From a virus: DNA of 20,991 nucleotides. This document shows, piece after piece, positions 4,271-18,563 of the stretch; the stretch's first letter is position 1, and each line of letters opens with the position of its first letter. The DNA lies in the IMG/VR virus record IMGVR_UViG_3300015360_000227, positions 1 to 20,991 of that record; one strand, given 5' to 3'. A program made the position numbers and the translations under genes. The notes below the pieces were generated by a model, which did no database searches, had not been told where the DNA came from, and saw only the letters and a program-made list of their open reading frames with translations.

Positions 4271-4298
4271 ACTATACCACGGTCTATAAGTATGTCAA
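4271..4298 (-). promoter_or_regulatory. Repeated late promoter element, copy B
   Basis: Minus strand: TTGACA at 4298-4293, 16-nt spacer, TATAGT at 4276-4271. The -35 box and part of the spacer encode the last residues (Leu-Thr-Tyr-Leu) and stop of the upstream glycosyltransferase. The -10-proximal spacer matches copy A at most positions. Confidence 0.75.
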
Positions 4299-5015
4299 CC
4301 TTGGCCACTGATTGCTTGCTTTCAGCTCTGCCTTCCGCTTATCGTAAAGCCCATTAAAGATAACATGGTTCTTGTTCCATTGAGCTTCTCCACCGAAATC
4401 CTCTCTCCCATGACGAAGAGTGAATGATTCATTGGTTTGGTCTAAGAACGTCTTATATCCAGCGTCATAGATACGCTCCATTATTTGTAGCTGGTCGCCA
4501 CCAACACCAAGAAAATCAAGGTGCTCGTCCATACCACCGACATCCAACACTGCTTGCTTTGGGAATCCTGCAAAATTCCATTCAACATCGTTTGTCTTAC
4601 ATTCATAAACAGACCCGTACTTATCAGTCTTTCTTGGGTCACTCCACACCTTCACCTCTGGCTTCATGGTGTCCTCGTTCAGTCTCGCGTATTGGTCACC
4701 TACGCCAGAGACAACGCCACCGGTCACTTCTACTGCCAAAACCATCTTAGCGATAGCATCTGGAGGAAGCCATATCCAGTCTTGCCAGGTGATGATTATC
4801 TCTCCCACTGCTTTACGGAACAAGGCATTATAAGCCCTGTTTAAGCTCCAGTAGCCACCATAAAAGCTATCGTGCACCCACACAGCATCCTCTACCTTAA
4901 AAGGAGAACAGACCAACCACTCCCAATCGGTATAGGTTTGGTTCAGTAAAGATTCTCGTATGACATCAAGACCACCCTCACGAATAGAGGGGGTAATTAT
5001 GCTGACTTTGACCAT
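4284..5015 (-). CDS. Glycosyltransferase, GT2-like (243 aa)
   Basis: The N-terminus MVKVSIITPSIREGG followed by a helix and NQTYTDWEWLV is the classic opening of GT-A fold family 2 transferases, which move a sugar from a nucleotide donor. The usual DxD is replaced around residues 76-82 by TWQDWIW, so metal binding may rest on the single Asp79. Later GGMDEHLDFLGVGGDQ (about 165-180) resembles the acceptor-side GGxDE motif of GT2 enzymes. It is the last gene of the carbohydrate operon, overlaps the preceding GT2 gene by 19 nt, and is followed by a promoter overlapping its stop. Acceptor and donor are unknown. Confidence 0.75.
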   Translation of the reverse strand: MVKVSIITPSIREGGLDVIRESLLNQTYTDWEWLVCSPFKVEDAVWVHDSFYGGYWSLNRAYNALFRKAVGEIIITWQDWIWLPPDAIAKMVLAVEVTGGVVSGVGDQYARLNEDTMKPEVKVWSDPRKTDKYGSVYECKTNDVEWNFAGFPKQAVLDVGGMDEHLDFLGVGGDQLQIMERIYDAGYKTFLDQTNESFTLRHGREDFGGEAQWNKNHVIFNGLYDKRKAELKASNQWPRLTYL

Positions 5016-5545
5016 CGCTCTTTGTATTTAATTTGATTACGCTTGAAAAAATCATCATGGTCAGGAAAGGTATGTAATGTTCTCCCTCCCTCATGTACAA
5101 AATTTACACTCGAGATACTCTTCATTTTAACGCCTGCTTGTTCAAGCGTATTCCTATAATCATCATCATCAAAATAACTCACCTCATAACCTTCCCACAG
5201 TCCTCCAACTTTTTCATAAACCCATCGAGGTATACAAAACACACATCCCCAAAAATCATTACGCCTACCATTTATCAATGGAGAGGTAACAGCTTCAGGG
5301 TCGCAAAGCATATCTAGGTCACCTTCAGTGAGAATAACATCATCATTCATGACAATAATGAAGTCTCCTTTAGCAAGAGCAAGCCCTTTATTAATTGGTT
5401 TTGCATATCCCATCTTCCAGTTCCAAATAACCAGAAGTTCACTGATAGGGCTAAGGGAGTCAGTGCATCTTTTAAGAATAGAAGGTTTACCTTCATCAGC
5501 TTCCATATAAGGTATAACAACACTTATATTATTTTTTCTTTCCAT
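4997..5545 (-). CDS. Glycosyltransferase, GT2-like (182 aa, short)
   Basis: The product opens with a family 2 strand (ISVVIPYMEADEG, residues 7-19), has KGDFIIVMNDDV at 59-70 with the donor/metal-binding NDD, and WVYEKVGGLWEGYEVSYFDDDDY (about 108-130), matching the G-x-hydrophobic-DE...D-D-x-D/E acceptor region of rhamnosyl- and related transferases. A late HEGGRT fits a C-terminal GT2 His motif. At 182 residues it is shorter than typical (about 250-300), but the core seems complete. The N-terminus overlaps the epimerase gene by 22 nt. Base composition is visibly more AT-rich than the capsid genes, as for its two upstream neighbours, suggesting separate acquisition. Confidence 0.75.
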   Translation of the reverse strand: MERKNNISVVIPYMEADEGKPSILKRCTDSLSPISELLVIWNWKMGYAKPINKGLALAKGDFIIVMNDDVILTEGDLDMLCDPEAVTSPLINGRRNDFWGCVFCIPRWVYEKVGGLWEGYEVSYFDDDDYRNTLEQAGVKMKSISSVNFVHEGGRTLHTFPDHDDFFKRNQIKYKERWSKSA

Positions 5546-6519
5546 GTTCGTGGTGTTTTATCATTAATTATTTCTAGTGGGAGGGAATAATCAAATGGTT
5601 TTGTACCTTTCTTTTTTATATCTTCAATCATTTGTATTAGACCATCACGAAGAGAAGTATCTGTATGGTAGCCAAAGTCCTTTCTAATTTTAGCTGAAGA
5701 ACAATGAGCGTCTTTTACTTCACGAGGTCTTTCAGGATAAAAATCAAACTCCCCCTTGTAGTCAGTCAATTCAGCAATCAGATTAGCAAGCTCAAGTATA
5801 GTCACCACTTCTCCATCTACTTCGTCTGGTCCAATATTATACATTTCTCCTGACGGTGCATCAATTAATTTCACTAATGTTTGTATACAATCATCTACGA
5901 AAGAAAAACATCTAGTTTGGGAACCATCACCATATATAATAGGGGACTTTCCTTGAAGCATTCGATTTATCATAATACTAGCCACATTTCTAAATGGGTC
6001 GTCATACTTTTGACGAGTCCCAATAATTGAGTGAGGTACAGCAATGACATATTCAAAACTATGAGTTTCTGCCATTTGTTTAATCACTTGTTCAGAAGCG
6101 ACTTTAGCAGAAGCATAGGGGTCTTCTGGTCGTGGCAACATATCTTCTGTAAAAGGAGTAGCTTGGTTACCATAGCGAGACATAGAGGACAAGTATATAA
6201 ATCTCTTCAAGTGCCCTCCTTTTATGGAAGAAGAAAGTAGTTGAACTGTGTTTTGAAAAGTATTATTTGTGACGAGAGCAGGAGAAAAAACCGATAGACC
6301 TTCATAAGGAGTGCACGCACAATGATAAATAACTTCAAAATTCCAGTACTGCTCTTTATCATTAAGGTCAGCTTCTAGAAAAGAAACTCCTTTTGGTACA
6401 TTTTCAATACAACCCCCAACAAAGTTATCAACACCAAAAACTTCATGTCCCTCTCTAATTAGTGCCTCAGCAAGATGACTCCCTAAAAATCCTGCCACTC
6501 CTGTAACTAAAATTTTCAT
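5524..6519 (-). CDS. NAD-dependent sugar epimerase/dehydratase (extended SDR)
   Basis: A 331-residue extended short-chain dehydrogenase. The NAD-binding loop is GVAGFLG at residues 7-13, the acidic residue after strand 2 is D31, the catalytic Ser lies in YLSSMSRYG (about 109-117) and the catalytic YxxxK is Y135-K139 (YASAK). PREVKDAHCSSAKIRKDFGY near residue 280 is the usual C-terminal substrate region. The family interconverts nucleotide sugars such as UDP-glucose/UDP-galactose or makes related deoxy sugars. The exact substrate cannot be read here. Its start overlaps the methyltransferase stop by 4 nt (ATGA), with AAAGGA directly before the ATG. It probably supplies a donor sugar to the neighbouring transferases. 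Confidence 0.88.
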   Translation of the reverse strand: MKILVTGVAGFLGSHLAEALIREGHEVFGVDNFVGGCIENVPKGVSFLEADLNDKEQYWNFEVIYHCACTPYEGLSVFSPALVTNNTFQNTVQLLSSSIKGGHLKRFIYLSSMSRYGNQATPFTEDMLPRPEDPYASAKVASEQVIKQMAETHSFEYVIAVPHSIIGTRQKYDDPFRNVASIMINRMLQGKSPIIYGDGSQTRCFSFVDDCIQTLVKLIDAPSGEMYNIGPDEVDGEVVTILELANLIAELTDYKGEFDFYPERPREVKDAHCSSAKIRKDFGYHTDTSLRDGLIQMIEDIKKKGTKPFDYSLPLEIINDKTPRTWKEKII

Positions 6520-7037
6520 TCCTTTACGGCTTTAGCAATTAAGCAACCCATATCATGTGCTTCATACTCCCTGCGGACTTCAACTTTGAAACCAGCTTTT
6601 TCGAGAGCATCTGTGAGGGAATTTTTAGTGTATCCCCAATGGTGTTTGTCAAAGCCAGTGTCACCGACATTGCCATAAATAACCTCCATGAGTTTTTTCG
6701 TAGTAGTAAAATAGCTCGAGTCGCTCCTCCCCCCATTTTCCGTAAGAATAATCTGGTGACAAAGCCACTCTATATCAGGCACGTTAATAATGGCATAGCC
6801 CCCAGAAGGTAATGAGTCATACCAATGCTTCAACATAGCGTCAACTTCTTCAGGAACTATGTGCTCAACAATATGGGAAGCATAGATTGCCTCTACTCCT
6901 TCTGGTAAAGAACGAGCATCAACTCTCATTATGTTATTTGAACGAGGGTTAATATCAGTCAATATCCAAGTATCATCAATAAAATTATAATGATAGCGAT
7001 GTGGCTTTTCGTCGTAAACGCCTAAGACTATTTTCAT
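6516..7037 (-). CDS. SAM-dependent methyltransferase-like protein, lacking the glycine loop
   Basis: 173 residues resembling the type 11 methyltransferases found in polysaccharide clusters. D28 in WILTDINPR matches the acidic ribose-binding residue, VDARSLP (39-45) the adenine region, and YASHIVEHI (52-60) with the following LPSGGYAIINVPD (76-88) the post-I and motif III region. The usual motif I (GxGxG, before the acidic residue) is absent: the segment is MKIVLGVYDEKPHRYHYN. So the enzyme is either divergent or has lost cofactor binding. ATGA overlaps join it to both neighbours. Likely role: methylation of a sugar or glycan; inference from context. Confidence 0.7.
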   Translation of the reverse strand: MKIVLGVYDEKPHRYHYNFIDDTWILTDINPRSNNIMRVDARSLPEGVEAIYASHIVEHIVPEEVDAMLKHWYDSLPSGGYAIINVPDIEWLCHQIILTENGGRSDSSYFTTTKKLMEVIYGNVGDTGFDKHHWGYTKNSLTDALEKAGFKVEVRREYEAHDMGCLIAKAVKE

Positions 7038-7819
7038 ATCACCGATGTTATACCCCTTAGTAATGCTTTGTAATAATGAACTTCACTCGGTACAGGCACT
7101 TTACTCATCTCATTAAGCTTCGGATTGTCGCCTTCAATTTTCACAGGAACTCCGCACGCGCGAGCTTCCAACACTGCTCTCTCTCCGCCGCCATTTATAT
7201 CAGCGGGGATGTAACAGAGCCTTGAAGCATTATAGAAATCAGACAGCTTCTCTGGGGTAACCATATTGCACACGGCAACACCATTCGTAAGAAGCTCTCC
7301 AACGATGTGCAGTGACTCGCTCATGTTCCCTCTTTGTATCTCTCCAATAACAATACGAAGACCAGGGAGAGCGCGTATCTTTTCTTGTCTTTTCCAGGAA
7401 GAGAAAGCTCCAACAGAAATGACATCAAAGAGTTTCGTTGCCTTCTTACGATGAAAATAGATTTGAGTATTCACACCGAAAGCCAGGTGGATATTTTTAT
7501 GGTCAGCTATTTGTGGCTTGTACCACTTAGTCTCGTAAAATAGGACATCATAATTATGCCTATGGATTGGCTCGAAAGCATTACCACCAATGCAAAGTCC
7601 TTTTTTGATATCCAAGCATCGTATAGCCTGTTCAACGGGCGATTCAAAACCACCCCAACCGAGAAGGAAGTCATAGCCCTGAATATCCACCTCGTCAGTT
7701 CTGATATTCTTACACACGACATCGTAGTCGTTCAGGAGAAGCTGAATAGCAGCCCACAAACCGTCCCTCCAGAGGTGGGGGTATTCATGGTCATAGACAA
7801 AGAGTATTTTCTTTTTCAT
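7034..7819 (-). CDS. Glycosyltransferase, GT4-like (261 aa)
   Basis: A two-Rossmann GT-B type protein, shorter than the usual 350-400 residues. The N-terminal half begins KKILFVYDHEYPHLWRDG. The second domain starts near VISVGAFSSWKRQEKI (133-148). The donor-binding signature is PADINGGGERAVLEARACG (205-223), with the E-x4-E pair E213 and E218 that contacts the nucleotide sugar in family 4 enzymes. The start overlaps the stop of the large fusion transferase by 4 nt. Its position in the operon suggests it adds a sugar to the same glycan. Substrate unknown. Confidence 0.78.
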   Translation of the reverse strand: MKKKILFVYDHEYPHLWRDGLWAAIQLLLNDYDVVCKNIRTDEVDIQGYDFLLGWGGFESPVEQAIRCLDIKKGLCIGGNAFEPIHRHNYDVLFYETKWYKPQIADHKNIHLAFGVNTQIYFHRKKATKLFDVISVGAFSSWKRQEKIRALPGLRIVIGEIQRGNMSESLHIVGELLTNGVAVCNMVTPEKLSDFYNASRLCYIPADINGGGERAVLEARACGVPVKIEGDNPKLNEMSKVPVPSEVHYYKALLRGITSVI

Positions 7820-10080
7820 AGATGTTCTGCCCAGCGGTCAGCAATGTTTTTCCATGATTCTTCACGCGCGAGGACGCTAAATCCTTCACTTCCCTCAAAA
7901 GCCGTTGTCAGAAGGAGGACAACCTTATCGGCAACATTTTTTTGTGTCTCTATCTTCAATGGGTTGCCAGGGACGGTCCAGCAATAAGTTCTATCTTTTA
8001 GAGCGGCATAATTCGTTGTGACGGGGATACATTCAACAGCGGCTGATTCTCTTACGCCGATACAGTCAATCTCCTCAAAAATACATGGGTAGAAATGGAC
8101 TGGGGCTGTGGCCTTGAAGTTGATGAGTTCCTGTTGAGACACTCGTCCATGGTGGACTACGCCTGGCTGGGTCATCAGCTCTTCCATCTTTGCTTTCCAG
8201 GCCATACGCTCTGGATTGTTTCTGTGAATGGCCTCAAAGAGATTCCAACCATAGAAGATATGAAACTCGGCGTGGGGAACGGCCTTCTTGATAATCGGCC
8301 ACCCGATAGAGAGGGCTGGCTCTAACCCTCGGTCATAACTAGATGACCACACCACTCTTCCTGGTACCTTCTCTAACTTCTTTGGAAGCATTGTCAGGTC
8401 AATACCATTTGGTATGATTTCGAACTTCTCATCTGGGACATCAGGAAGAAGCGAACGATGATACGGTGACTTCACAAATATCTTCGTCACTTTCTTTAAT
8501 CGCTCGGGAGTGTATTCAGCCGCCTGTGGGACATCGTGCAAGTCCAAGAACACGCGCTTCGCTTTGCAGGGAGTGTTGAGTAAGGTTTCGTTCCTCCAAA
8601 TGATGAGGGTATCAAAGGTATCCATCATATTCCACTGCCACCAGTGCTTCCAATCAATACCGTCCTTATCGGTGTGCTCCCCTTTAGGATAACCGAATAT
8701 CGTGACCTTATACCCTAGCTTTGTCCATTGTCGAGCGAGATGTATCACCGCCGTTTCAGACCCACCGATACCAGCCTCCAGATTACTCTCATCCCATCTC
8801 TCGAATCCCTTCCCACAAAAATAAGCAATGGTTTTTTCTCCCCATACTTTTGCTGGGGTATACTCCTGAATAAGTTTTTCAAGAAGTTTTGTTCCCTGAA
8901 GTTTATCGGGAGCGTTGAGAACGAGGGCTGCGACCCTTTCTATATCATCATAAGAATCTATAACATGTAAGAACGCTTCACCGAGAGTTTTATTTTCCAT
9001 GAGTTGCGTTACTGCCTCCAATCGCTCTGCTAACAACGTATCATCAGGAAAGAATTGGCACAGTTTTTCCGCTGCCATCAGACATTCCTCCATCTTTCCT
9101 GTCTTCAGCGTGGCAAAGTAAATAACCTCCAGTGCTTTCATCTTATCGTCGCGAGGAGTCATTACCATAGCAGTTTTGGGCGCGTTCATGGAAAGACCCA
9201 TTTGGGTGAAGAATATCGCTCGTTCCCAGTCTTCTTTCTTCCCATAGGCAACACCAAGGTTCACATACCAGGTAGGAAACTCAGGACGTTCCTTGATAGC
9301 CTGCATATAGGCCTCAATAGCGTCATCAAACTTGTCGTTTTGGATGTAAATATCACCTAAATAGCTCCAAGCCATAGCCCTTTCTTCATCCCATCCAGAG
9401 TGCTCCAAATAGGCATACAAGAGTCTTTCCGCCTTAGCATGGTCACGACTATCATAATAACAGCGAGCCAGGTAGTATTCTGTCCGAGGGTCGTGCTTAG
9501 TGCCTTCATCTGCATAGGTTTTCTCCAAAATCTCTATATTCCGATGGATATTGTTATCAATTTCCGCCTCAGTCGGGTAGTGATTAACCGCTAAAAGGTT
9601 AGTAAAGACGGTTGTTACCTGCTTCTGTGGGATGAGTGTCTCGTGCAGTTTACCAACCCAGTGATAGGAGTTCTTTCGTATAACGCGCTCTCTTGGGTGG
9701 GATATCAGTATTTGTCCTGTTTTCTCGTCTATCTGGTAGTTATAGGTAGCAAAATAGGCATCTTCACCGGTAGAAATGAGCTGTTTTAGGACGTTTCCGT
9801 CCTTCAAAACATCGTCCGTGTCGAGCCAAATCATATACTCATATTCGTCTGGAATCTGGCTTTTGGCGTAGTTTCGAGCAGCGGAGAAATCTTTGTTCCA
9901 CTTAAAGAAAGAAATCTTTGCTCCATAGGATGCAAAGACTTTTGTGGCCTCTCCTTCTTTCTCCCAGGTGGCGGTAGCGTAGACAGCGTCAACGTGTTGC
10001 GCGACGCTCTGCAAAAGGCGGTTAATCTGAGCACCGGTTTCAGTGCCTTTGTAGATTATCGACAGGGCTATTTTTGACAT
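7816..10080 (-). CDS. Trifunctional-looking glycosyltransferase: GT2 + TPR + GT4 fusion
   Basis: 754 residues in three parts. Residues 1-175 are a family 2 transferase: KIALSIIYKG start, FFKWNKDFSAARNYAKS (58-74), the metal/donor motif WLDTDD (85-90) and HWVGKLHETL (140-149). Residues about 195-350 form tetratricopeptide-like helices (EYYLARCYYDSRDHAKAERL; AWSYLGDIYIQNDKFDDAIE), possible acceptor-binding scaffold. Residues about 415-754 are a family 4 transferase: AGIGGSETAVIHLAR (436-450), IIPNGID (555-561), WSSSYDRGLEPAL (578-590) and an E-x7-E type region in FEEIDCIGVRESAAVE. GT2-TPR proteins with extra GT domains occur in bacteria and some phages. It starts 1 nt after the preceding stop, with AGGA 7 nt before the ATG, one of the few good ribosome sites here. 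Confidence 0.85.
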   Translation of the reverse strand: MSKIALSIIYKGTETGAQINRLLQSVAQHVDAVYATATWEKEGEATKVFASYGAKISFFKWNKDFSAARNYAKSQIPDEYEYMIWLDTDDVLKDGNVLKQLISTGEDAYFATYNYQIDEKTGQILISHPRERVIRKNSYHWVGKLHETLIPQKQVTTVFTNLLAVNHYPTEAEIDNNIHRNIEILEKTYADEGTKHDPRTEYYLARCYYDSRDHAKAERLLYAYLEHSGWDEERAMAWSYLGDIYIQNDKFDDAIEAYMQAIKERPEFPTWYVNLGVAYGKKEDWERAIFFTQMGLSMNAPKTAMVMTPRDDKMKALEVIYFATLKTGKMEECLMAAEKLCQFFPDDTLLAERLEAVTQLMENKTLGEAFLHVIDSYDDIERVAALVLNAPDKLQGTKLLEKLIQEYTPAKVWGEKTIAYFCGKGFERWDESNLEAGIGGSETAVIHLARQWTKLGYKVTIFGYPKGEHTDKDGIDWKHWWQWNMMDTFDTLIIWRNETLLNTPCKAKRVFLDLHDVPQAAEYTPERLKKVTKIFVKSPYHRSLLPDVPDEKFEIIPNGIDLTMLPKKLEKVPGRVVWSSSYDRGLEPALSIGWPIIKKAVPHAEFHIFYGWNLFEAIHRNNPERMAWKAKMEELMTQPGVVHHGRVSQQELINFKATAPVHFYPCIFEEIDCIGVRESAAVECIPVTTNYAALKDRTYCWTVPGNPLKIETQKNVADKVVLLLTTAFEGSEGFSVLAREESWKNIADRWAEHL

Positions 10081-10513: not shown

Positions 10514-11413
10514 CTAGACAGAGAAGTTGCGGACAGTCATGGCACGAGCACCACGAGTTTCCACGGTAGCTTCTCCGATAATCATCCCTCTTGAGGCATC
10601 ACCGATAGTAGCGAGCTCTACCAACTTCGGCTTACGTAGGTAAGCGATTTGGATTTGGCTCTTCTTAAGACCGATAACGTCTCCAGCGAGTACATCCTTG
10701 TGGGCCTTTATTTCATGGATACCGAAATCCGATTCATAAATCGAAATGGTATTCACCAAACTCTTGTCCTCAGCAGAGATGTTACGAGTGTTTCCGGCGG
10801 TAAACTTGGAAATATCACGTTTTCTGCCTGCAGTGGTCAACACGAGGTCGAACACATATTCGTCAGTGACATTCCAGCTGGATACAACCATGTCGTTGAA
10901 TTCGTTTTCCGAGAGACTGGTTCCAGAAACACGGAGAGTGTACAGACCATCTGTGACAATCGTGTTACGGATACCTTCCATTTCTCGTCCGACACCAGAG
11001 GAACCAGAAGCCTTTGTTCCGCGAAGCAGAGCAAACTCAAACTGATTTTTCCAGGTCTTCATCGCTTTCGCTTGCTGGTATGCAAAGGCATCCTTAGGAG
11101 AAAGTTTGTTCACCTGTCGTTCCGTTTCGGAAACGATAAATGACTGCCGGATGATTTGGCAGATGTTGTTCTTGCGTGTTGGCTGGGTAAGAGCGGAGTA
11201 ACTTGCGTCATCACCTTCAATGGTCACCGCATTCGTGGTATTGCGAGCGACAAAGTCTTCACCCCATTCATGGAGGGTCTGTGAAGCAGTGCCGACTTTC
11301 GCAAAGTTCTGAATGTAGTTGGCATCTGGACTTACGTCCACCAAAACATCCATCAGGTCTTCACGGCGTACGGTGTCATTGTAGGTTTGAAGCGTACCGG
11401 CGGTCATGGCCAT
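10514..11413 (-). CDS. Major capsid protein, SU10/DUF5309 type (HK97 fold)
   Basis: 299 residues. The N-terminal pattern T-x3-YNDTVRREDLMDVLVDVSPD (9-29), then HEWGEDFVARNT, an EGDDASY segment, and NNICQIIRQSFIVSETER (about 81-98) is the conserved opening of the SU10-type capsid family, which adopts the HK97 fold and builds the icosahedral shell. No N-terminal delta domain is present, consistent with a separate scaffold gene immediately upstream (22-nt gap). The start at 11413 is chosen because it follows the gap and matches the family's N-terminus (MAMTAGTL); an in-frame Met lies at residue 3. A strong terminator follows, as expected for a highly expressed gene. Confidence 0.9.
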   Translation of the reverse strand: MAMTAGTLQTYNDTVRREDLMDVLVDVSPDANYIQNFAKVGTASQTLHEWGEDFVARNTTNAVTIEGDDASYSALTQPTRKNNICQIIRQSFIVSETERQVNKLSPKDAFAYQQAKAMKTWKNQFEFALLRGTKASGSSGVGREMEGIRNTIVTDGLYTLRVSGTSLSENEFNDMVVSSWNVTDEYVFDLVLTTAGRKRDISKFTAGNTRNISAEDKSLVNTISIYESDFGIHEIKAHKDVLAGDVIGLKKSQIQIAYLRKPKLVELATIGDASRGMIIGEATVETRGARAMTVRNFSV

Positions 11414-11435: not shown

Positions 11436-12194
11436 TTATCCTTTCAAAAGAGCAGCAATCGCTTCTGGGTCTCCGCGTCGAGCACCGTCTCGCATAGTGG
11501 CTTCCTTGCTATTGTCGGTTGTCTGCGGTTGAGCTGACGACCCACGAGCTTCGGAAGTAGCTTGTTCGAGTTTTGTTGCCTCGGCATTAACCTGTTGGGC
11601 AATCGCTTCTTTCTGTGGCTGTGACAAGAGAGAGAAATCTGCTTTCGCTTTTCGGGCAAGACTTACCAAATCTGGGTTCTTCCCCTGGAGCTGTTCAAGG
11701 ACGTACATCCCAGCAACGTGTTTCTCGAAAGCCCGATTCTCAGGCTTCTTAAATTCAGGGTTGGCTGGATTGAGCTCTGGGAAGGCATTGAATAGTCGCT
11801 CGTCGTCAAGCTGTTGCTTAAGGTCAACTACTTGCTGAGCTGTCATTTGAGCTTGATAGGCTACCTGTTGCATCTGATTCATCGTTTCATCTGGAGCCAT
11901 TTCTGACGTGAATTGCGTCTGAGGAACTTGCCTCTGGCGAAACTGGCTGAGAATCTCCGCTTCCTCTTCTACGGTTACAGGCGCTTCCTGGATTTCCTTG
12001 AGTGACTTGATTTCCTGTCTCATCTTTATGAACGCTTCACGTTGCTTATCAGGCTCGGTTGGCATTTCATCTTCCTGCTCCGTCTGAGCTTCTGCAGTCG
12101 GGGTTTCTGCTGTGGCGGTTGCTTCCACATCCGGTTGCACATCGGCTTGTACGGGCTCCTGTACCTCCTCTACTCCCTGGTTTTGTTCATCCAT
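11436..12194 (-). CDS. Capsid scaffolding protein
   Basis: 252 residues, very acidic N-terminus (long E/Q/T/A-rich stretch to about residue 50), a charged helical centre with Gln-rich coiled-coil character (QQVVDLKQQLDDERLF, about residues 120-135), and a short basic region near the C-terminus (MRDGARRGDPEAIAALLKG). This composition and the position directly before the capsid gene are typical of scaffolds that template procapsid assembly and are then released. The C-terminal basic helix is where such proteins usually bind the capsid protein. No protease motif is visible. It is the first gene after promoter copy C and the terminator at 12240-12280. Confidence 0.85.
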   Translation of the reverse strand: MDEQNQGVEEVQEPVQADVQPDVEATATAETPTAEAQTEQEDEMPTEPDKQREAFIKMRQEIKSLKEIQEAPVTVEEEAEILSQFRQRQVPQTQFTSEMAPDETMNQMQQVAYQAQMTAQQVVDLKQQLDDERLFNAFPELNPANPEFKKPENRAFEKHVAGMYVLEQLQGKNPDLVSLARKAKADFSLLSQPQKEAIAQQVNAEATKLEQATSEARGSSAQPQTTDNSKEATMRDGARRGDPEAIAALLKG

Positions 12195-12858: not shown

Positions 12859-14865
12859 TCAGCCAACAGGAACTCCTTGAGGAACTCCGACCGGAGGAAT
12901 TCCTTGGCCAGCAATCCCCGTCGTTTGCGGAGGGAGCGCGACTCCTCCATTTCCCGAGACATCGACTCCATCTGCTCCTGCGTTTGGAAGATTTCCATCT
13001 TGTTGCATGTTGGGTTGATTAGGTGGTGCCATTGGTTGTTCTGGAAGTTTATCGAAGTACTGGTCAGCATCTTTCACTCCTGCCTTTTCAGCGAGGGCGG
13101 TGTTGAGTTCTTTCCACTTGACGATGATTCCTTGCTTCTCCATCGACTGTTCACTTTCAAGGAGCGACTGCATAAAGAGTTGGCGAGCCTGCACTTCGGT
13201 CTGGTCGCTCTGGATACTCATCGCTTCAATGTCGACAATGAAATCAAACTCGCCGTCATAGTCATCTTTCTCCATGGTGAGTGTTCCTGACCTATTGCCA
13301 TTTTCCAACTGTAATTTTGGAAGCATCGCTCCATCTGGTCCGGCGACAGGATAGAGTGGTGTTCCGTACTGCTGGAGGAGTCCGGTCTGACGCATTTCCT
13401 CGTAGGCTTGCTCCCACATGATGTCGTGTTCATGAGCATACTGCGCGACCAGTTCCTGTCCTTCCGAGCTGACTGACCAGTCTTGCAGTCCTTCGTTCAT
13501 GAAATCAGCGATAGCATCTTTGCCAATAATCTTTACAACTTCGCCGTCTCCCAAGAACTGCTTGTTCATTTGTGTCCAAAAGAAAATCATTTTCCCCATA
13601 GCAAGCTGGAGCATTATCTTGTTGGCGTTGTCGCGCGAGGTACGCAAGAGTGCCATGTCCCTCACTTCGGTGGCGGTCTTTTCTACTCCTGACTGCTGGG
13701 CAATCTGAGAGACATCCTGTCCTGTTTCCCCCATACCTTCCATGATGAGCGATGTGAGTAGTCCATAGACCTCAAAGAACTTCTGCATAGAAGTGGTGCC
13801 ACTCTGGAATGGCATGACATCAGTGCCAGGGCGTTGCATGAGCCAGCGAGCACCTGAGTCAAACTTGAGCGTGTCCATCTGCACGTTCTGGGGGTTTACC
13901 ATGAGAGGCGTGTAGAGTTCGTTCTGGGCGGATTCAAGGTACTGACAGAGCAGGGCCCAGTTTGCCTTTAAGAGGGGAAGAACAGCTTCCAATTCTGGCA
14001 CACCATAAATATCATCATCGATTGAATCGTACATCAATCGGATAATAGGGATTTCTCCGTGGTCAAATGGGTTGGGAATCTCACGAAGGACCATACCCTT
14101 CACATCTCCGCGCTTCGGCATAAAGGTAATCCATTTGTCCCGACGATATTCAGTCACCACCTCAAAACGACCGTTTGATTTCGCGTTCTGCAAACCGACA
14201 ACCGTCTTGTTGATAGAGGTATATTCTTTGTGGTCGCCATCTTGTTCGTCCTCCATATCCTTGATAGCTTTCGTATCATAGATGGGTCCGAATTTTGCCT
14301 TTTCGTTGACCTTCTTTAGTTCTGCTAGGGTGACATAGCGACGCACCTGCACCCATTCAGAGTCTTCGAGAGAGGACGCTCCTGGCTGAGTGATGACGTT
14401 GCGGTTCTCCAGATGTTCAAACCAAGGCTGAGAGACCTTGCCCTTCTTATTCCAACCAACAAAAGCAAACCCAGCCCCGTATTTACGAGTGGATTGGTCT
14501 ACTTTGCGCCATTTCATGAGGATTGGTTCGTCGGTGCAGAGGTCGTGATACTGCCACTGAGAAAGAACGAGCTGGGTGTTTATCTTTGCCTTAAGTTCAG
14601 AGCCGTCCTTTCGTGGTTTGAGGTTCCCTTGGAGCCGAGAAGCAAGCAGTCGGTCGGTTTTGCGTTTAAGAAGAGTGGCTCCACGTCCGTCAGGTACCCT
14701 GGCTCGAAATGGCCAAGTCGTTGGGTCAATATAATTGCGGAAAACACGGTCATAGACATCAAAGCCTCGCTCCTTATGAGTGATTCGAGTCTCGAGTTCT
14801 CCTTTTCCGTCATCATAGTGACGTAAAACCTCGCTTAATACGTCTTTTTTCTTCGTTCGTGCCAT
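12859..14865 (-). CDS. Portal protein (podovirus/P22-type, 668 aa)
   Basis: The size fits the large portals of short-tailed phages. The N-terminal half is alpha/beta with KYGAGFAFVGWNKKGK (about 128-143) and an RxVTLAELKK helix (about 191-202), as in other phage portals. The central LYTPLMVNPQNVQ...GARWLMQRPGTDVMPF leads to the helical wing and stem (LLTSLIMEGMGETGQD) and a long helical C-terminal part. The last 60 residues are Pro/Gly/Gln/Asn-rich and probably disordered. Twelve copies form the ring through which DNA is pumped and to which the terminase and adaptor attach. The likely promoter is at 14895-14928. Confidence 0.88.
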   Translation of the reverse strand: MARTKKKDVLSEVLRHYDDGKGELETRITHKERGFDVYDRVFRNYIDPTTWPFRARVPDGRGATLLKRKTDRLLASRLQGNLKPRKDGSELKAKINTQLVLSQWQYHDLCTDEPILMKWRKVDQSTRKYGAGFAFVGWNKKGKVSQPWFEHLENRNVITQPGASSLEDSEWVQVRRYVTLAELKKVNEKAKFGPIYDTKAIKDMEDEQDGDHKEYTSINKTVVGLQNAKSNGRFEVVTEYRRDKWITFMPKRGDVKGMVLREIPNPFDHGEIPIIRLMYDSIDDDIYGVPELEAVLPLLKANWALLCQYLESAQNELYTPLMVNPQNVQMDTLKFDSGARWLMQRPGTDVMPFQSGTTSMQKFFEVYGLLTSLIMEGMGETGQDVSQIAQQSGVEKTATEVRDMALLRTSRDNANKIMLQLAMGKMIFFWTQMNKQFLGDGEVVKIIGKDAIADFMNEGLQDWSVSSEGQELVAQYAHEHDIMWEQAYEEMRQTGLLQQYGTPLYPVAGPDGAMLPKLQLENGNRSGTLTMEKDDYDGEFDFIVDIEAMSIQSDQTEVQARQLFMQSLLESEQSMEKQGIIVKWKELNTALAEKAGVKDADQYFDKLPEQPMAPPNQPNMQQDGNLPNAGADGVDVSGNGGVALPPQTTGIAGQGIPPVGVPQGVPVG

Positions 14866-14928: not shown

Positions 14929-15187
14929 ATATGTCTTCTCCAGGGAGCGTTTTGAGTATTTTATCCTGCATGGTTCGTACCCGAATCCAGTTTCCATTGT
15001 TTTTTCGTTGCATTTCAATGAAAATCTTGCCAAAACCGTCATCTGATGTTCTAATAATGGCCATTTTCTCCGCTACCACTAACAATTCCTGAAAATCAAG
15101 GTGTCCGCGCTGGGCCATTTGATAAATAGTGAAGAGTTCTGGGCACGATTGGCTGAGGAGGGCTGCGAATTGTTCTTCGTTTGTCAT
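14909..15187 (-). CDS. Hypothetical protein between terminase nuclease and portal (92 aa)
   Basis: The product begins MTNEEQFAALLSQSCPELFTI, is helical in the first two thirds (QELLVVAEKMAIIRTSDDG) and ends with an acidic tail. No family is recognised. The ATG overlaps the nuclease stop by 4 nt (ATGA, 15184-15187), so it is translated with the terminase genes. By position it could be a packaging accessory factor, but the sequence does not show this. Confidence 0.7.
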   Translation of the reverse strand: MTNEEQFAALLSQSCPELFTIYQMAQRGHLDFQELLVVAEKMAIIRTSDDGFGKIFIEMQRKNNGNWIRVRTMQDKILKTLPGEDIFDNLST

Positions 15188-15867
15188 AAGCCTATGTGTG
15201 GGTCATGTTTTATTTGGGCACTCGCTTGTTTCAGGTAGGTGGAGAATGGTCCACTGCCAGCGCTGTTAAAACCAGAATACTCACGAGCATACTGATAGAG
15301 TTGCCAGGCACCAGCAAGAGCCATGACCAGGTCGTCGTGGGCCCCTTTTTCCGCTTGGGCTTTCCAGGAGGAGGACGTCTTAGCAATAACAAAAGAAAAA
15401 AGTTCCTCTATGGTTTGGCGGTCATAGATAGTGGCTATGCCCTTATCAACCATGTCCTTGAGGTCAGAGAGCATCTTAGGGCGCGTGGCAGTGTTCGTGT
15501 CCCACCCCAGCTTCTTTGATTCTTCGTTGTCCAGGTAGCGACCATAGGTGGGCATCATAAAAATATCAAACTTGTTTCTTCTGTTTAATGAGGCCAGCCG
15601 TTCCATTTCGAACACGCCACCGTTATTTCTTTCATAGGCAACCAGTGGTTTGATACCGGTGGTGTCATAAATCTTCTCAAGTACCGGAAAGAGTTCATTG
15701 GTCATGTCGGTGGCCATGCGCCTGGAGTGGAACACCAGAGGAACGTCTAAGCGTTGGCGAGATAAAAACTGCACGCAGGAATAGTCCTTGGCACCGGCAG
15801 AAGTGTCAGCAAAAACAAGGATGTGCTCCCCATCAGTGATGTTTCTGTATTGCCGCCAATCTTTCAT
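15184..15867 (-). CDS. terL: Terminase large subunit, nuclease part (separate gene)
   Basis: 227 residues corresponding to the RNase H-like C-terminal half of a TerL. D21 in ILVFADTSAGAKDYS is the first catalytic Asp with its following G-x-DY, E79 in LVAYERNNGG is the second acidic residue, and D178-D179 in GAHDDLVMALAGAW is the last. These bind two metal ions and cut concatemeric DNA into genome lengths. The ATPase half is not fused but encoded 227 nt upstream, with a GroES-like gene between. The start at 15867 leaves a short linker (MKDWRQYRNITDGEH) before the first strand, matching the normal hinge between TerL domains. There is no sign of a frameshift remnant. ATGA overlaps link it to both neighbours. 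Confidence 0.88.
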   Translation of the reverse strand: MKDWRQYRNITDGEHILVFADTSAGAKDYSCVQFLSRQRLDVPLVFHSRRMATDMTNELFPVLEKIYDTTGIKPLVAYERNNGGVFEMERLASLNRRNKFDIFMMPTYGRYLDNEESKKLGWDTNTATRPKMLSDLKDMVDKGIATIYDRQTIEELFSFVIAKTSSSWKAQAEKGAHDDLVMALAGAWQLYQYAREYSGFNSAGSGPFSTYLKQASAQIKHDPHIGL

Positions 15868-16094
15868 AATTGTGCGAGGAGTTCATCCTCTTTAATAACA
15901 ATGTAACTCACGCCAGCAATGGTGACACCGAGCAGAGCCTTGGAAGGGTTGTACACATAGGTACCTTTGGCTATGGCACCAAATACGAGCTCCCCCGTGG
16001 GTTCAGCACTATTGTCTCCGAGGAAAATACCATTAGCGGTGACCGATTCTGTCGAGGTGGGGATAAGAAACACATAGCCATTGAGAGGGTTCAT
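15864..16094 (-). CDS. GroES-like co-chaperonin (phage Cpn10), inside the terminase operon
   Basis: 76 residues: NGYVFLIPTSTESVTANGIFLGDN (5-28) matches the start of Cpn10 proteins, with NGIFL in the place of the GGIVL tip of the mobile loop that docks on GroEL. PTGELVFGAIAKGTYV (32-47) matches the turn and beta-barrel strand, and YIVIKEDELLAQL (64-76) the terminal strand (usual form y-x-I-hydrophobic-x-E-x-D-I-L-A). It is shorter than bacterial GroES (about 97). T4 gp31 is the known precedent for a phage co-chaperonin that replaces GroES for capsid protein folding. It shares ATGA overlaps with the ATPase gene upstream and the nuclease gene downstream. No Walker or nuclease residues are present, so it is not a piece of TerL. 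A small beta-barrel of another family is the alternative. Confidence 0.68.
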   Translation of the reverse strand: MNPLNGYVFLIPTSTESVTANGIFLGDNSAEPTGELVFGAIAKGTYVYNPSKALLGVTIAGVSYIVIKEDELLAQL

Positions 16095-16903
16095 ACCAGT
16101 TGGAATTTAATTGGTTTAAGAAGTTTCGCGTAATCAAGGTGCTTCCTTAAGGCGTCAACATCAAAGTAACAATCCCCAGAGGTGATAAAGGCAACTTCGG
16201 GAGAATCTGGATATTCTTGTTCATAGAGGCGACCCAGTTCACGGCGCTTGGAATCGAGGAACTCTTTCGAATAGAAATCCTTGGCATTGAAGAAGAGGGG
16301 GTTGAAATTATTGTCACCGCCCTTTGCCCCATCCCAGAGTGTCTTAAAAAGGTTGAAGCCATTGGCGGTGGTTTCAACAACAACATAGCCATCGGGGACA
16401 ACCGCTTGAAGGGCACCAGCCAAAAGTTTATCAAAGTCTTTATAAAAAGCAGCCTCCGAAAAATGAAGATTGGTGATAGTTTTGGAGCGCCCAAAGGAGT
16501 GTCGCCCAGCGGTACCGATGATGTAATGGGACCCAATAACCTGGTTGACGAGTTCACGACGGGAATTGTATTTCAAAAATTTGGAAGCATCTATCCCTTG
16601 GGAGGCGGCATAGTCCTCCACAAACTGCTTCACTCGGTCTAAGAGACCTTGAGCGTTCTCAGTGCTATCAGCAATGACGACAGAATAGGAATTATCCTTG
16701 AGGAGGAAATCCACAGCAAAACGAGCAAGAATAACAGAAGAAAAGCCTTGCTGGCGAGCTTTAAGAATAATGTCTCTGTCTGTCGCCCCCTTCTGATAGG
16801 CATCCTGGATGGGATTGAGGATAAAAGGCACTCGAACACCTTGTTTATTCACAATGGTAAACGTATCCTCTATAAATTTCTTATATCCAGCTTTCCAGGG
16901 CAT
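16091..16903 (-). CDS. terL: Terminase large subunit, ATPase part (separate gene)
   Basis: 270 residues equal to the N-terminal motor half of TerL. Adenine-binding Q33 lies in NPIQDAY. The Walker A variant is KARQQGFSS (48-56), of the RQxGxS type usual in terminases. Walker B is TNLHFSEAAF (144-153) with catalytic Glu150. The coupling motif is VVETTANG (175-182). The protein ends a few residues after GDCYFDVDALRKHLDYAKLL, the position where the nuclease domain would normally follow. It drives ATP-dependent DNA translocation into the procapsid through the portal. ATG at 16903 has no Shine-Dalgarno; a hairpin lies about 40 nt upstream. The downstream gene starts inside its stop codon. Confidence 0.9.
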   Translation of the reverse strand: MPWKAGYKKFIEDTFTIVNKQGVRVPFILNPIQDAYQKGATDRDIILKARQQGFSSVILARFAVDFLLKDNSYSVVIADSTENAQGLLDRVKQFVEDYAASQGIDASKFLKYNSRRELVNQVIGSHYIIGTAGRHSFGRSKTITNLHFSEAAFYKDFDKLLAGALQAVVPDGYVVVETTANGFNLFKTLWDGAKGGDNNFNPLFFNAKDFYSKEFLDSKRRELGRLYEQEYPDSPEVAFITSGDCYFDVDALRKHLDYAKLLKPIKFQLV

Positions 16904-17386: not shown

Positions 17387-17818
17387 CTATAAGTCGTATC
17401 CCTTTCGCGTCTCTTTTATCGTGTGAGAGAGGTTGACGTTGACTTGTTTCAAATGTCCTTTCGTTTTGAGTGCTAAAGTAATGAAACCAAGCTTCTTTCC
17501 TTCCGTTAGTGAGTTTTCTATTCCACTCTTCAATTCTTCCATTAAATATCCATCCGTCAAGCCTATAGTATCCATTATCTCCACCAGTACATTCTTCACG
17601 TGTGGTTTTGCTAACGTTGCAACGCCCAATCCTCTCTTTCCTTCTTCGCTTTTGTTTGAGGCATACGCTTGACGTCCTGCTTCGCTTTTGTTTCCTGTTA
17701 TGGCGTACACTTGTACTGTTTTTGCTTGTTTTGCCGTCAATTCTTTTCCGTTCTTTTCCAGTGATATTCTTTGTATTTCCTCAATGGTCACGGCCTTTCC
17801 TATTGGTTGCGGTTTCAT
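17387..17818 (-). CDS. terS: Terminase small subunit
   Basis: The start is placed at ATG 17818 (143 residues, MKPQPIGKAVTIEEI). The frame extends 19 codons further upstream but through promoter sequence. Residues 27-52, ELTAKQAKTVQVYAITGNKS then EAGRQAY, match the N-terminal helix-turn-helix of small terminases (L-T-x-K-Q-x-x-F-V-x-x-Y-x-x-x-G-N-x-x-x-A). AKPHVKNVLVEIMDTIGL (about 70-87) and ELKSGIENSL fit the following helices. TerS recognises the packaging site and loads TerL. A duplicated N-K-S-E segment 12 residues apart matches a 14-bp DNA repeat. The leader has no Shine-Dalgarno; the ATG is preceded by TATAATACT, as in the divergent transglycosylase gene. The gene is separated from terL by 483 nt, unusually far. 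Confidence 0.82.
   Translation of the reverse strand: MKPQPIGKAVTIEEIQRISLEKNGKELTAKQAKTVQVYAITGNKSEAGRQAYASNKSEEGKRGLGVATLAKPHVKNVLVEIMDTIGLTDGYLMEELKSGIENSLTEGKKLGFITLALKTKGHLKQVNVNLSHTIKETRKGYDL
17644..17693. repeat. 14-bp direct repeat inside terS
   Basis: CTTCGCTTTTGTTT occurs at 17644-17657 and again at 17680-17693, 36 bp (12 codons) apart and in frame. It encodes N-K-S-E twice in the DNA-binding region of TerS. It may be a local duplication or a recognition site; pac sites within terS are known in phages such as P22. Confidence 0.6.
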
Positions 17819-17835
17819 AGTATTATATAGAAAGC

Positions 17836-17865
17836 TTGACAGGTTATATAAAAATATGCTACACT
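17836..17865 (+). promoter_or_regulatory. Rightward promoter for the transglycosylase unit
   Basis: TTGACA (17836-17841), 18-nt spacer, TACACT (17860-17865). Transcription would start near 17872 and produce a leader of about 230 nt before ATG 18105. It lies almost exactly on top of the leftward terS promoter. Confidence 0.65.
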
Positions 17866-17870
17866 GTCTA
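17843..17870 (-). promoter_or_regulatory. Leftward promoter for terS, overlapping the rightward one
   Basis: Minus strand: TAGACA at 17870-17865, 16-nt spacer, TATAAC at 17848-17843. The transcript would start about 17836 and reach the terS ATG (17818) within about 20 nt. The TAGACA -35 is shared with the promoter at 10442-10470. RNA polymerase could not occupy both strands' promoters at the same time. Confidence 0.45.
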
Positions 17871-17871
17871 T

Positions 17872-18104
17872 ACAACTGAGCTACACGTGATACACGGTAG
17901 ACTGGTTGGCAGGTTTCAACACTTCGTGGTAAGCAGTAGATACATTCTCAATCTAGCTACTTTATACCACGAAACAAAGCACAACGCAAGCAAGCAATTG
18001 GTGGGCTATCGTTAGCAAGTTCTTGGCCAGTGCCAAGCGGTAGCCCTCTCTATTAATACACGGGTGACGGTTGATTGATACGCTATCAATCAAAATATAA
18101 TACT
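17872..18104 (+). ncRNA. Structured leader with four successive hairpins (5' UTR or RNA element)
   Basis: No gene is present. Hairpin 1, 17881-17900: CTAC/GTAG and CGTG/CACG with one bulged A and an ATA loop. Hairpin 2, 17923-17973: TTCGTGGTA/TACCACGAA enclosing TAGAT/ATCTA. Hairpin 3, 18003-18046: GGGCTATCG/CGGTAGCCC (one wobble) around a 10-nt bulge and a perfect CTTGGC-CAGT-GCCAAG stem-loop. Hairpin 4, 18071-18093. No stem is followed by a T-tract, so these are not terminators. The order resembles a regulatory leader or structured RNA rather than spacer DNA. I do not recognise a known riboswitch or ribozyme. Confidence 0.5.
18071..18093 (+). repeat. Perfect 10-bp inverted repeat before the transglycosylase start
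   Basis: TTGATTGATA (18071-18080), CGC, TATCAATCAA (18084-18093). As DNA it is an operator-like palindrome; as RNA it is a stable hairpin ending 11 nt before the ATG, close enough to affect initiation. Confidence 0.7.
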
Positions 18105-18563
18105 ATGTTCGTCAAAACAAAAATAGCTATAGCACGGGGGAAGCTAGTCTGCGCCAAGCTGGTCCTGGTCTCTCTTGGTCTAGTAATAGGCGCCACAAGT
18201 ATGTACATCACTCTACAAGCGCCACAATACTGGAATACTAGCAACACTATAACATTCGAAAACAAACCGCTCACAATCGAAGCCAAGCCGTTAAAGGTCG
18301 AAACGGTGGAAGAAACAATCTCCCGAATGGTGGGAGAGCGTAAAATACTCCTAAAGGTGGCGCAATGTGAAAGTAATTTCTCACAATATGCTACCAATGG
18401 GCAGGGTTCAAGCGCAAAAGGAGTTTTCCAAATTCTCGACATGCACGGCCTCACACCGGAAGAGCGTTACAATGTCGCCACTTCTACGGCATGGGCTATA
18501 GCACAATACGACAAAAAAGGTCTCAAACCATGGCTAGCTAGTCAGCATTGCTGGTCTAAGTAA
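18105..18563 (+). CDS. Membrane-anchored lysozyme-like transglycosylase (candidate endolysin)
   Basis: 152 residues from ATG 18105; the frame could extend to a TTG at 18075, but that lies in a hairpin. A basic N-terminus is followed by one membrane segment (about 14-36, LVCAKLVLVSLGLVIGATSM), a periplasmic linker, and a lysozyme-fold domain from about residue 78. E89 in LKVAQCESNFSQ is the catalytic Glu, SSAKGVFQI (102-110) is the G-x-F/M-Q-I core, and YNVATSTAWAIAQYDKKGLKPW (122-143) is the helix-plus-PW end of the domain. Enzymes of this fold cleave the glycan strand of peptidoglycan. A non-cleaved anchor suggests a signal-anchor endolysin, though entry or host-wall remodelling are possible. 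No holin or spanin is evident nearby. The ATG follows TATAATACT, identical to terS. Confidence 0.82.
   Translation: MFVKTKIAIARGKLVCAKLVLVSLGLVIGATSMYITLQAPQYWNTSNTITFENKPLTIEAKPLKVETVEETISRMVGERKILLKVAQCESNFSQYATNGQGSSAKGVFQILDMHGLTPEERYNVATSTAWAIAQYDKKGLKPWLASQHCWSK

Follow-up and report, generated by a model that had tools for sequence, protein, structure and literature searches.

The stretch of DNA analysed here (the window) is a 20,991-base contig of an uncultivated podovirus, in which genes were called from open reading frames (ORFs) in combination with Pfam and PHROG profile matches. Along the minus strand, a terminase small subunit gene is followed by the ATPase half of the terminase large subunit, an ORF of 76 residues, the nuclease half, a 92-aa ORF, the portal, a 252-aa ORF (11436-12194) and the capsid gene. 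The small subunit (17387-17875) is recognised by PF03592 (E=1.6e-5) and PHROG_51 (E=8e-8). The portal (12859-14865) is SU10-like, matching PHROG_1216 (E=1.2e-8) and, below the cut-off of that model, PF23899 (E=2.9e-5), while the major capsid protein (10514-11413; 299 aa; PF17236, E=5.9e-56), also of SU10 type, is a candidate chaperonin substrate. No GroEL gene was found within the 21-kb window. Elsewhere on the contig, an SLT-type transglycosylase gene (18075-18563, plus strand) lies upstream of the oppositely oriented gene for the terminase small subunit, and the minus-strand region between the capsid and adaptor genes (4284-10080) carries glycosyltransferases, an NAD-dependent epimerase, a methyltransferase and a 754-aa TPR-glycosyltransferase protein.

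A preliminary description of this DNA had placed a 76-residue GroES-like gene at 15864-16094, between the terminase ATPase and nuclease genes and with an ATGA overlap on each side. These coordinates are exact, the gene being on the minus strand, and the identity of both flanking genes, also on the minus strand, is confirmed by PHROG matches and conserved motifs. The ATPase half (16091-16903; 270 aa) matches PHROG_2, terminase large subunit (E=1.1e-13), and its alignment with relatives reveals an invariant, Walker-A-like LKARQQGFSS and an ETTANG motif. The nuclease half (15184-15867; 227 aa) matches PHROG_24361, terminase (E=2.2e-12), and has the acidic residues D21, E79 and D178/D179 conserved in invariant alignment columns. 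The ATPase stop and the start of the 76-residue ORF share the 4 nt at 16091-16094 (minus strand), as do the stop of this ORF and the nuclease start at 15864-15867 (minus strand). Upon inspection of the upstream sequences, no obvious Shine-Dalgarno was seen ahead of either of these two starts, which together with the overlaps fits a probable translational coupling of the 76-residue ORF with both the ATPase and the nuclease genes.

The product of this ORF is confirmed as a divergent Cpn10/GroES, with a similarity far above chance. Against Pfam PF00166 it scores 21.0 bits (E=3.5e-4), 0.1 bit short of the gathering cut-off of 21.1, and it matches PHROG_3188, "co-chaperonin GroES", with E=3e-4. Several NCBIfam GroES models match as well, at E of about 0.002 and far below their curated cut-offs, and a phmmer search of PDB chains retrieves GroES (E=0.027). 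Additionally, two profiles built without the window protein score it at about 21-22.5 bits: with a phage-Cpn10 profile it reaches 22.5 bits against a maximum of 9.2 in 5000 shuffles, and with a wider profile it alone matches out of 481 stop-to-stop frames in the window (E=4.5e-6; next frame E=2.1). The latter alignment covers the protein end to end (residues 2-74), and a deletion lies behind the first strand after the loop. The nearest relative is the Cpn10 of the related contig L071 (35-37% identity, 34.6% over 81 columns; E=1.6e-9), and tblastn against named phages found no relatives. The window protein is the shortest of the set and among its most divergent members. The mobile-loop likeness noted earlier for NGIFL holds in the alignments, where this stretch falls on the hydrophobic motif of the GroES mobile loop, and the C-terminal end, YIVIKEDELLAQL, also noted earlier, falls on the C-terminal strand of GroES. 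Within the loop, IFL (residues 23-25) aligns with the GroEL-binding IVL of GroES and with the conserved GILL/GIIL of relatives, and is predicted to bind GroEL.

Structure prediction supports a GroES-type beta-barrel fold without the roof. Given six aligned sequences, each taken from the window or from loci of relatives, AlphaFold2 models a Cpn10 barrel (pLDDT 71.2) with strands at residues 7-12, 33-38, 45-48, 54-59, 62-68 and 72-75. Confidence is low at residues 16-29 only (ESVTANGIFLGDNS; 16008-16049, minus strand), the sole stretch with pLDDT<50, which in this model and in the alignments occupies the place of the mobile loop of GroES and is by comparison with GroES predicted to act as one. 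An earlier model from a gappier alignment had a pLDDT of 56, yet already matched GroES, and the tighter alignment raised this value to 71. In a Foldseek search of the PDB, ranks 1-31 are all Cpn10/GroES or Cpn10-domain chains, with probabilities of 0.94-1.00 and modest top E-values of about 1e-3; the next match has a probability of 0.09 and none thereafter exceeds 0.13, so that the strong matches are GroES/Cpn10 without exception. Among viral models (BFVD), those best matches that carry a name are viral GroES proteins. Since the AlphaFold2 alignments include recognised Cpn10s, the fold evidence is supportive but partly circular, and only in part independent of what the sequence shows. Both the model and the alignment to the wider profile indicate that the roof hairpin is gone, strands 33-38 and 45-48 being joined by a short turn only.

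Phage co-chaperonins are already well known, as in T4 gp31, pelagiphage GroES and PHROG_3188, and what is new here is the very short roofless protein, which adds a very small member to them, and its unusual position. T4 gp31, of about 111 aa against the 76 aa here, is likewise a phage-encoded Cpn10-type lid without roof loops in a head-morphogenesis context. The window protein differs from it in having a shorter mobile loop and a gene located between the terminase halves, and no direct match between the two was found in sequence searches. In gp31 the barrel and the mobile loop are kept without the roof loops, and the protein is essential for the folding of the T4 capsid protein gp23 (PMC6318259). 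With bacterial GroES/Cpn10 (PF00166) the window protein shares the barrel, the mobile loop with its hydrophobic tripeptide and the C-terminal strand; in contrast, its roof hairpin is deleted, identity is about 15-25%, and the gene sits in a phage packaging operon with no adjacent groEL. GroES is also a core gene of the HTVC023P-type pelagiphages, which are podoviruses, and for these we found no statement of a location in the terminase slot (PMC9599517). By profile, PHROG_3188, the GroES of HTVC023P-type phages and the window protein belong to one family.

To place the locus among its relatives, viral contigs were scanned for both terminase halves. A scan with the single ATPase protein found no relatives; alignment-based scans with the nuclease and the ATPase succeeded, yielding 94 non-redundant related contigs with both halves (L005-L161). 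The two genes abut or overlap in 65 of the 94, and a gap of at least 60 nt separates them in 27. The remaining two (L069 and L137) have a fused terminase, a single frame of about 490 codons that encodes ATPase and nuclease and leaves no room for a barrel. Three of the gaps trace back to artefacts of start codon, intein or frameshift (L030, L058, L157) and three hold no clear gene (L051, L082, L134), and so a clear ORF occupies about 21 of the 27. The cargo comprises an HNH endonuclease with a methyltransferase (L017), a nucleotidyltransferase (L018, with L114 similar in appearance), DNA methylases (L040 and L159, with L077 and L135 similar), another methyltransferase (L059, with L071 similar), a HAD-like protein (L073), a NinG-like protein (L111), an HNH-like ORF (L126) and, in further contigs, small ORFs without assignment. 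A quick FastTree of 90 rows, with a small number of artefacts among its slot calls, requires 14 or more changes in occupancy, and shows mostly empty slots in the neighbours of the window. The junction between the halves is a variable slot that has repeatedly taken up unrelated cargo. Inteins with Hint/Intein_splicing domains were also seen inside the nuclease gene itself (L058:2157-3560 and L111:4912-6558), with an HNH-like ORF in another frame within the insert.

A Cpn10 between the halves was found in none of the 94 other contigs with a split or fused terminase, nor in the literature searched; the arrangement is known from the window alone, in agreement with the unusual placement pointed out in the preliminary description. 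The split itself is common in relatives without Cpn10, and in the annotated phages whose ATPases are nearest, the terminase is a single chain. Thus, the split is a trait of this uncultivated podovirus group, neither caused by nor dependent on Cpn10. The idea that insertion of the Cpn10 gene had itself split the terminase was rejected, as the split is present without it. What emerges is an uncultivated podovirus clade with a two-protein large terminase and a cargo-accepting junction, perhaps a more interesting wider finding than the Cpn10, and one which lets us ask whether packaging needs the covalent joining of ATPase and nuclease. We found no published split terminase with a cargo slot in titles and abstracts, a source that covers the literature incompletely, and an earlier description is possible.

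The gene neighbourhoods of Cpn10 homologues provide additional clues. A Cpn10 passing the Pfam cut-off is present in 10 of the 123 related records searched, a lower bound given that many of these are fragments. All lie elsewhere in the head module and none between terminase halves: the gene is found between nuclease and portal in L017, L071 and L081/83/86, and directly after the major capsid (head protein) gene in L033, L058, L126/129 and L151, where the protein is extended by about 90 residues at its N-terminus. In L166, a contig of a Firestonebacteria MAG, a tandem Cpn10 pair (6678-7258) is located between nuclease and portal. Directly downstream of the L033 Cpn10 is a GroEL gene, and this row of capsid, Cpn10 and GroEL represents a phage-borne chaperonin pair beside its likely client. 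The Cpn10s of the split-terminase phages L071, L017, L166, L081 and L169 share phage group and family with the window protein but differ in location, their genes either following the capsid gene or separating nuclease from portal, and several retain a portion of the roof or carry the N-terminal extension of about 90 aa. Furthermore, in L172-L174, which were found via Cpn10 itself, the gene lies among glycosyltransferase genes. Within one phage group, the Cpn10 gene therefore moves around the head module, from the terminase junction to the positions before the portal and after the capsid gene and to the sugar-gene block.

We put forward, with a probability of roughly 0.8, that the 76-aa protein is a gp31-type lid for host GroEL which folds head proteins, and whose gene has settled in a tolerant insertion slot. 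The product would be a minimal roofless phage Cpn10 of which seven copies would form a ring. Its flexible loops (ANGIFLGD) could then dock on the apical domains of host GroEL, replacing host GroES, and the docked ring would seal phage head proteins inside the folding cage. The 299-aa major capsid protein is the likeliest client; the two terminase halves, or further proteins of the head, are possible clients too. The packaging operon would be a late one with translational coupling, and its ATPase/nuclease junction a tolerant slot; the Cpn10 gene may lie there because the junction of an already split terminase tolerates insertions, and in this operon the lid would be made together with the proteins that it serves. 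Two roles had been offered in the preliminary description. The folding of virion proteins with host GroEL is the one favoured here, since in relatives the Cpn10 genes neighbour those for capsid and portal, in one case together with GroEL; the other, a part in the packaging motor, found no support.

In an alternative scenario, the protein is a true co-chaperonin that chiefly serves the split terminase, with exposed and aggregation-prone halves, and the position of the gene serves the co-translational supply of the lid. The overlap coupling to both halves speaks for this, as does the presence of Cpn10 near the nuclease gene in L017, L071, L081 and L166. However, only 10 of the 123 records of relatives, many of them fragments, have a Cpn10, and in others it adjoins the capsid gene; we consider this scenario unlikely. 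Slightly more doubtful still is its narrower form, a dedicated roofless lid co-translated with both halves, with which GroEL would fold, and perhaps help to assemble, the ATPase and the nuclease; if true, a phage co-chaperonin would have the terminase as its client. That the gene is decaying or neutral cargo, with a shortened barrel unable to work with GroEL, might be suspected from the protein being the shortest member of its set and from the fast turnover of the slot (those 14 or more changes on the tree). This is very improbable given an intact frame, tight overlaps, a conserved motif in the loop and a hydrophobic pattern in the strands, and the fact that gp31 functions despite the loss of its roof (PMC6318259). 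Finally, that the barrel now serves the packaging motor as a linker or structural subunit, bridging the ATPase and nuclease proteins, as the site between the halves with an overlap on each side might suggest and as roof loss could suit, is hardly credible and fails on co-occurrence: in most related contigs the halves abut directly, the slot elsewhere holds methyltransferase, HNH, NTP-transferase or HAD genes, the two fused relatives have no barrel, the Cpn10s of relatives are located elsewhere, and the mobile loop is retained.

Some further features of the Cpn10 relatives deserve mention. The N-terminal extension of about 90 residues is conserved and charged, with a P-x-W-x-R/K-Y-E-K-D motif (L163, L165, L093 and L088), and the second Cpn10 of the L166 tandem has an insertion in its N-terminal region. 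In the record L088, that of L033, the capsid gene, the extended Cpn10 and GroEL stand in a row (174-2352), the contig ending inside GroEL. The sugar-gene block around the Cpn10 of L172-L174, in turn, resembles the block at 4284-10080 on the minus strand of the window.
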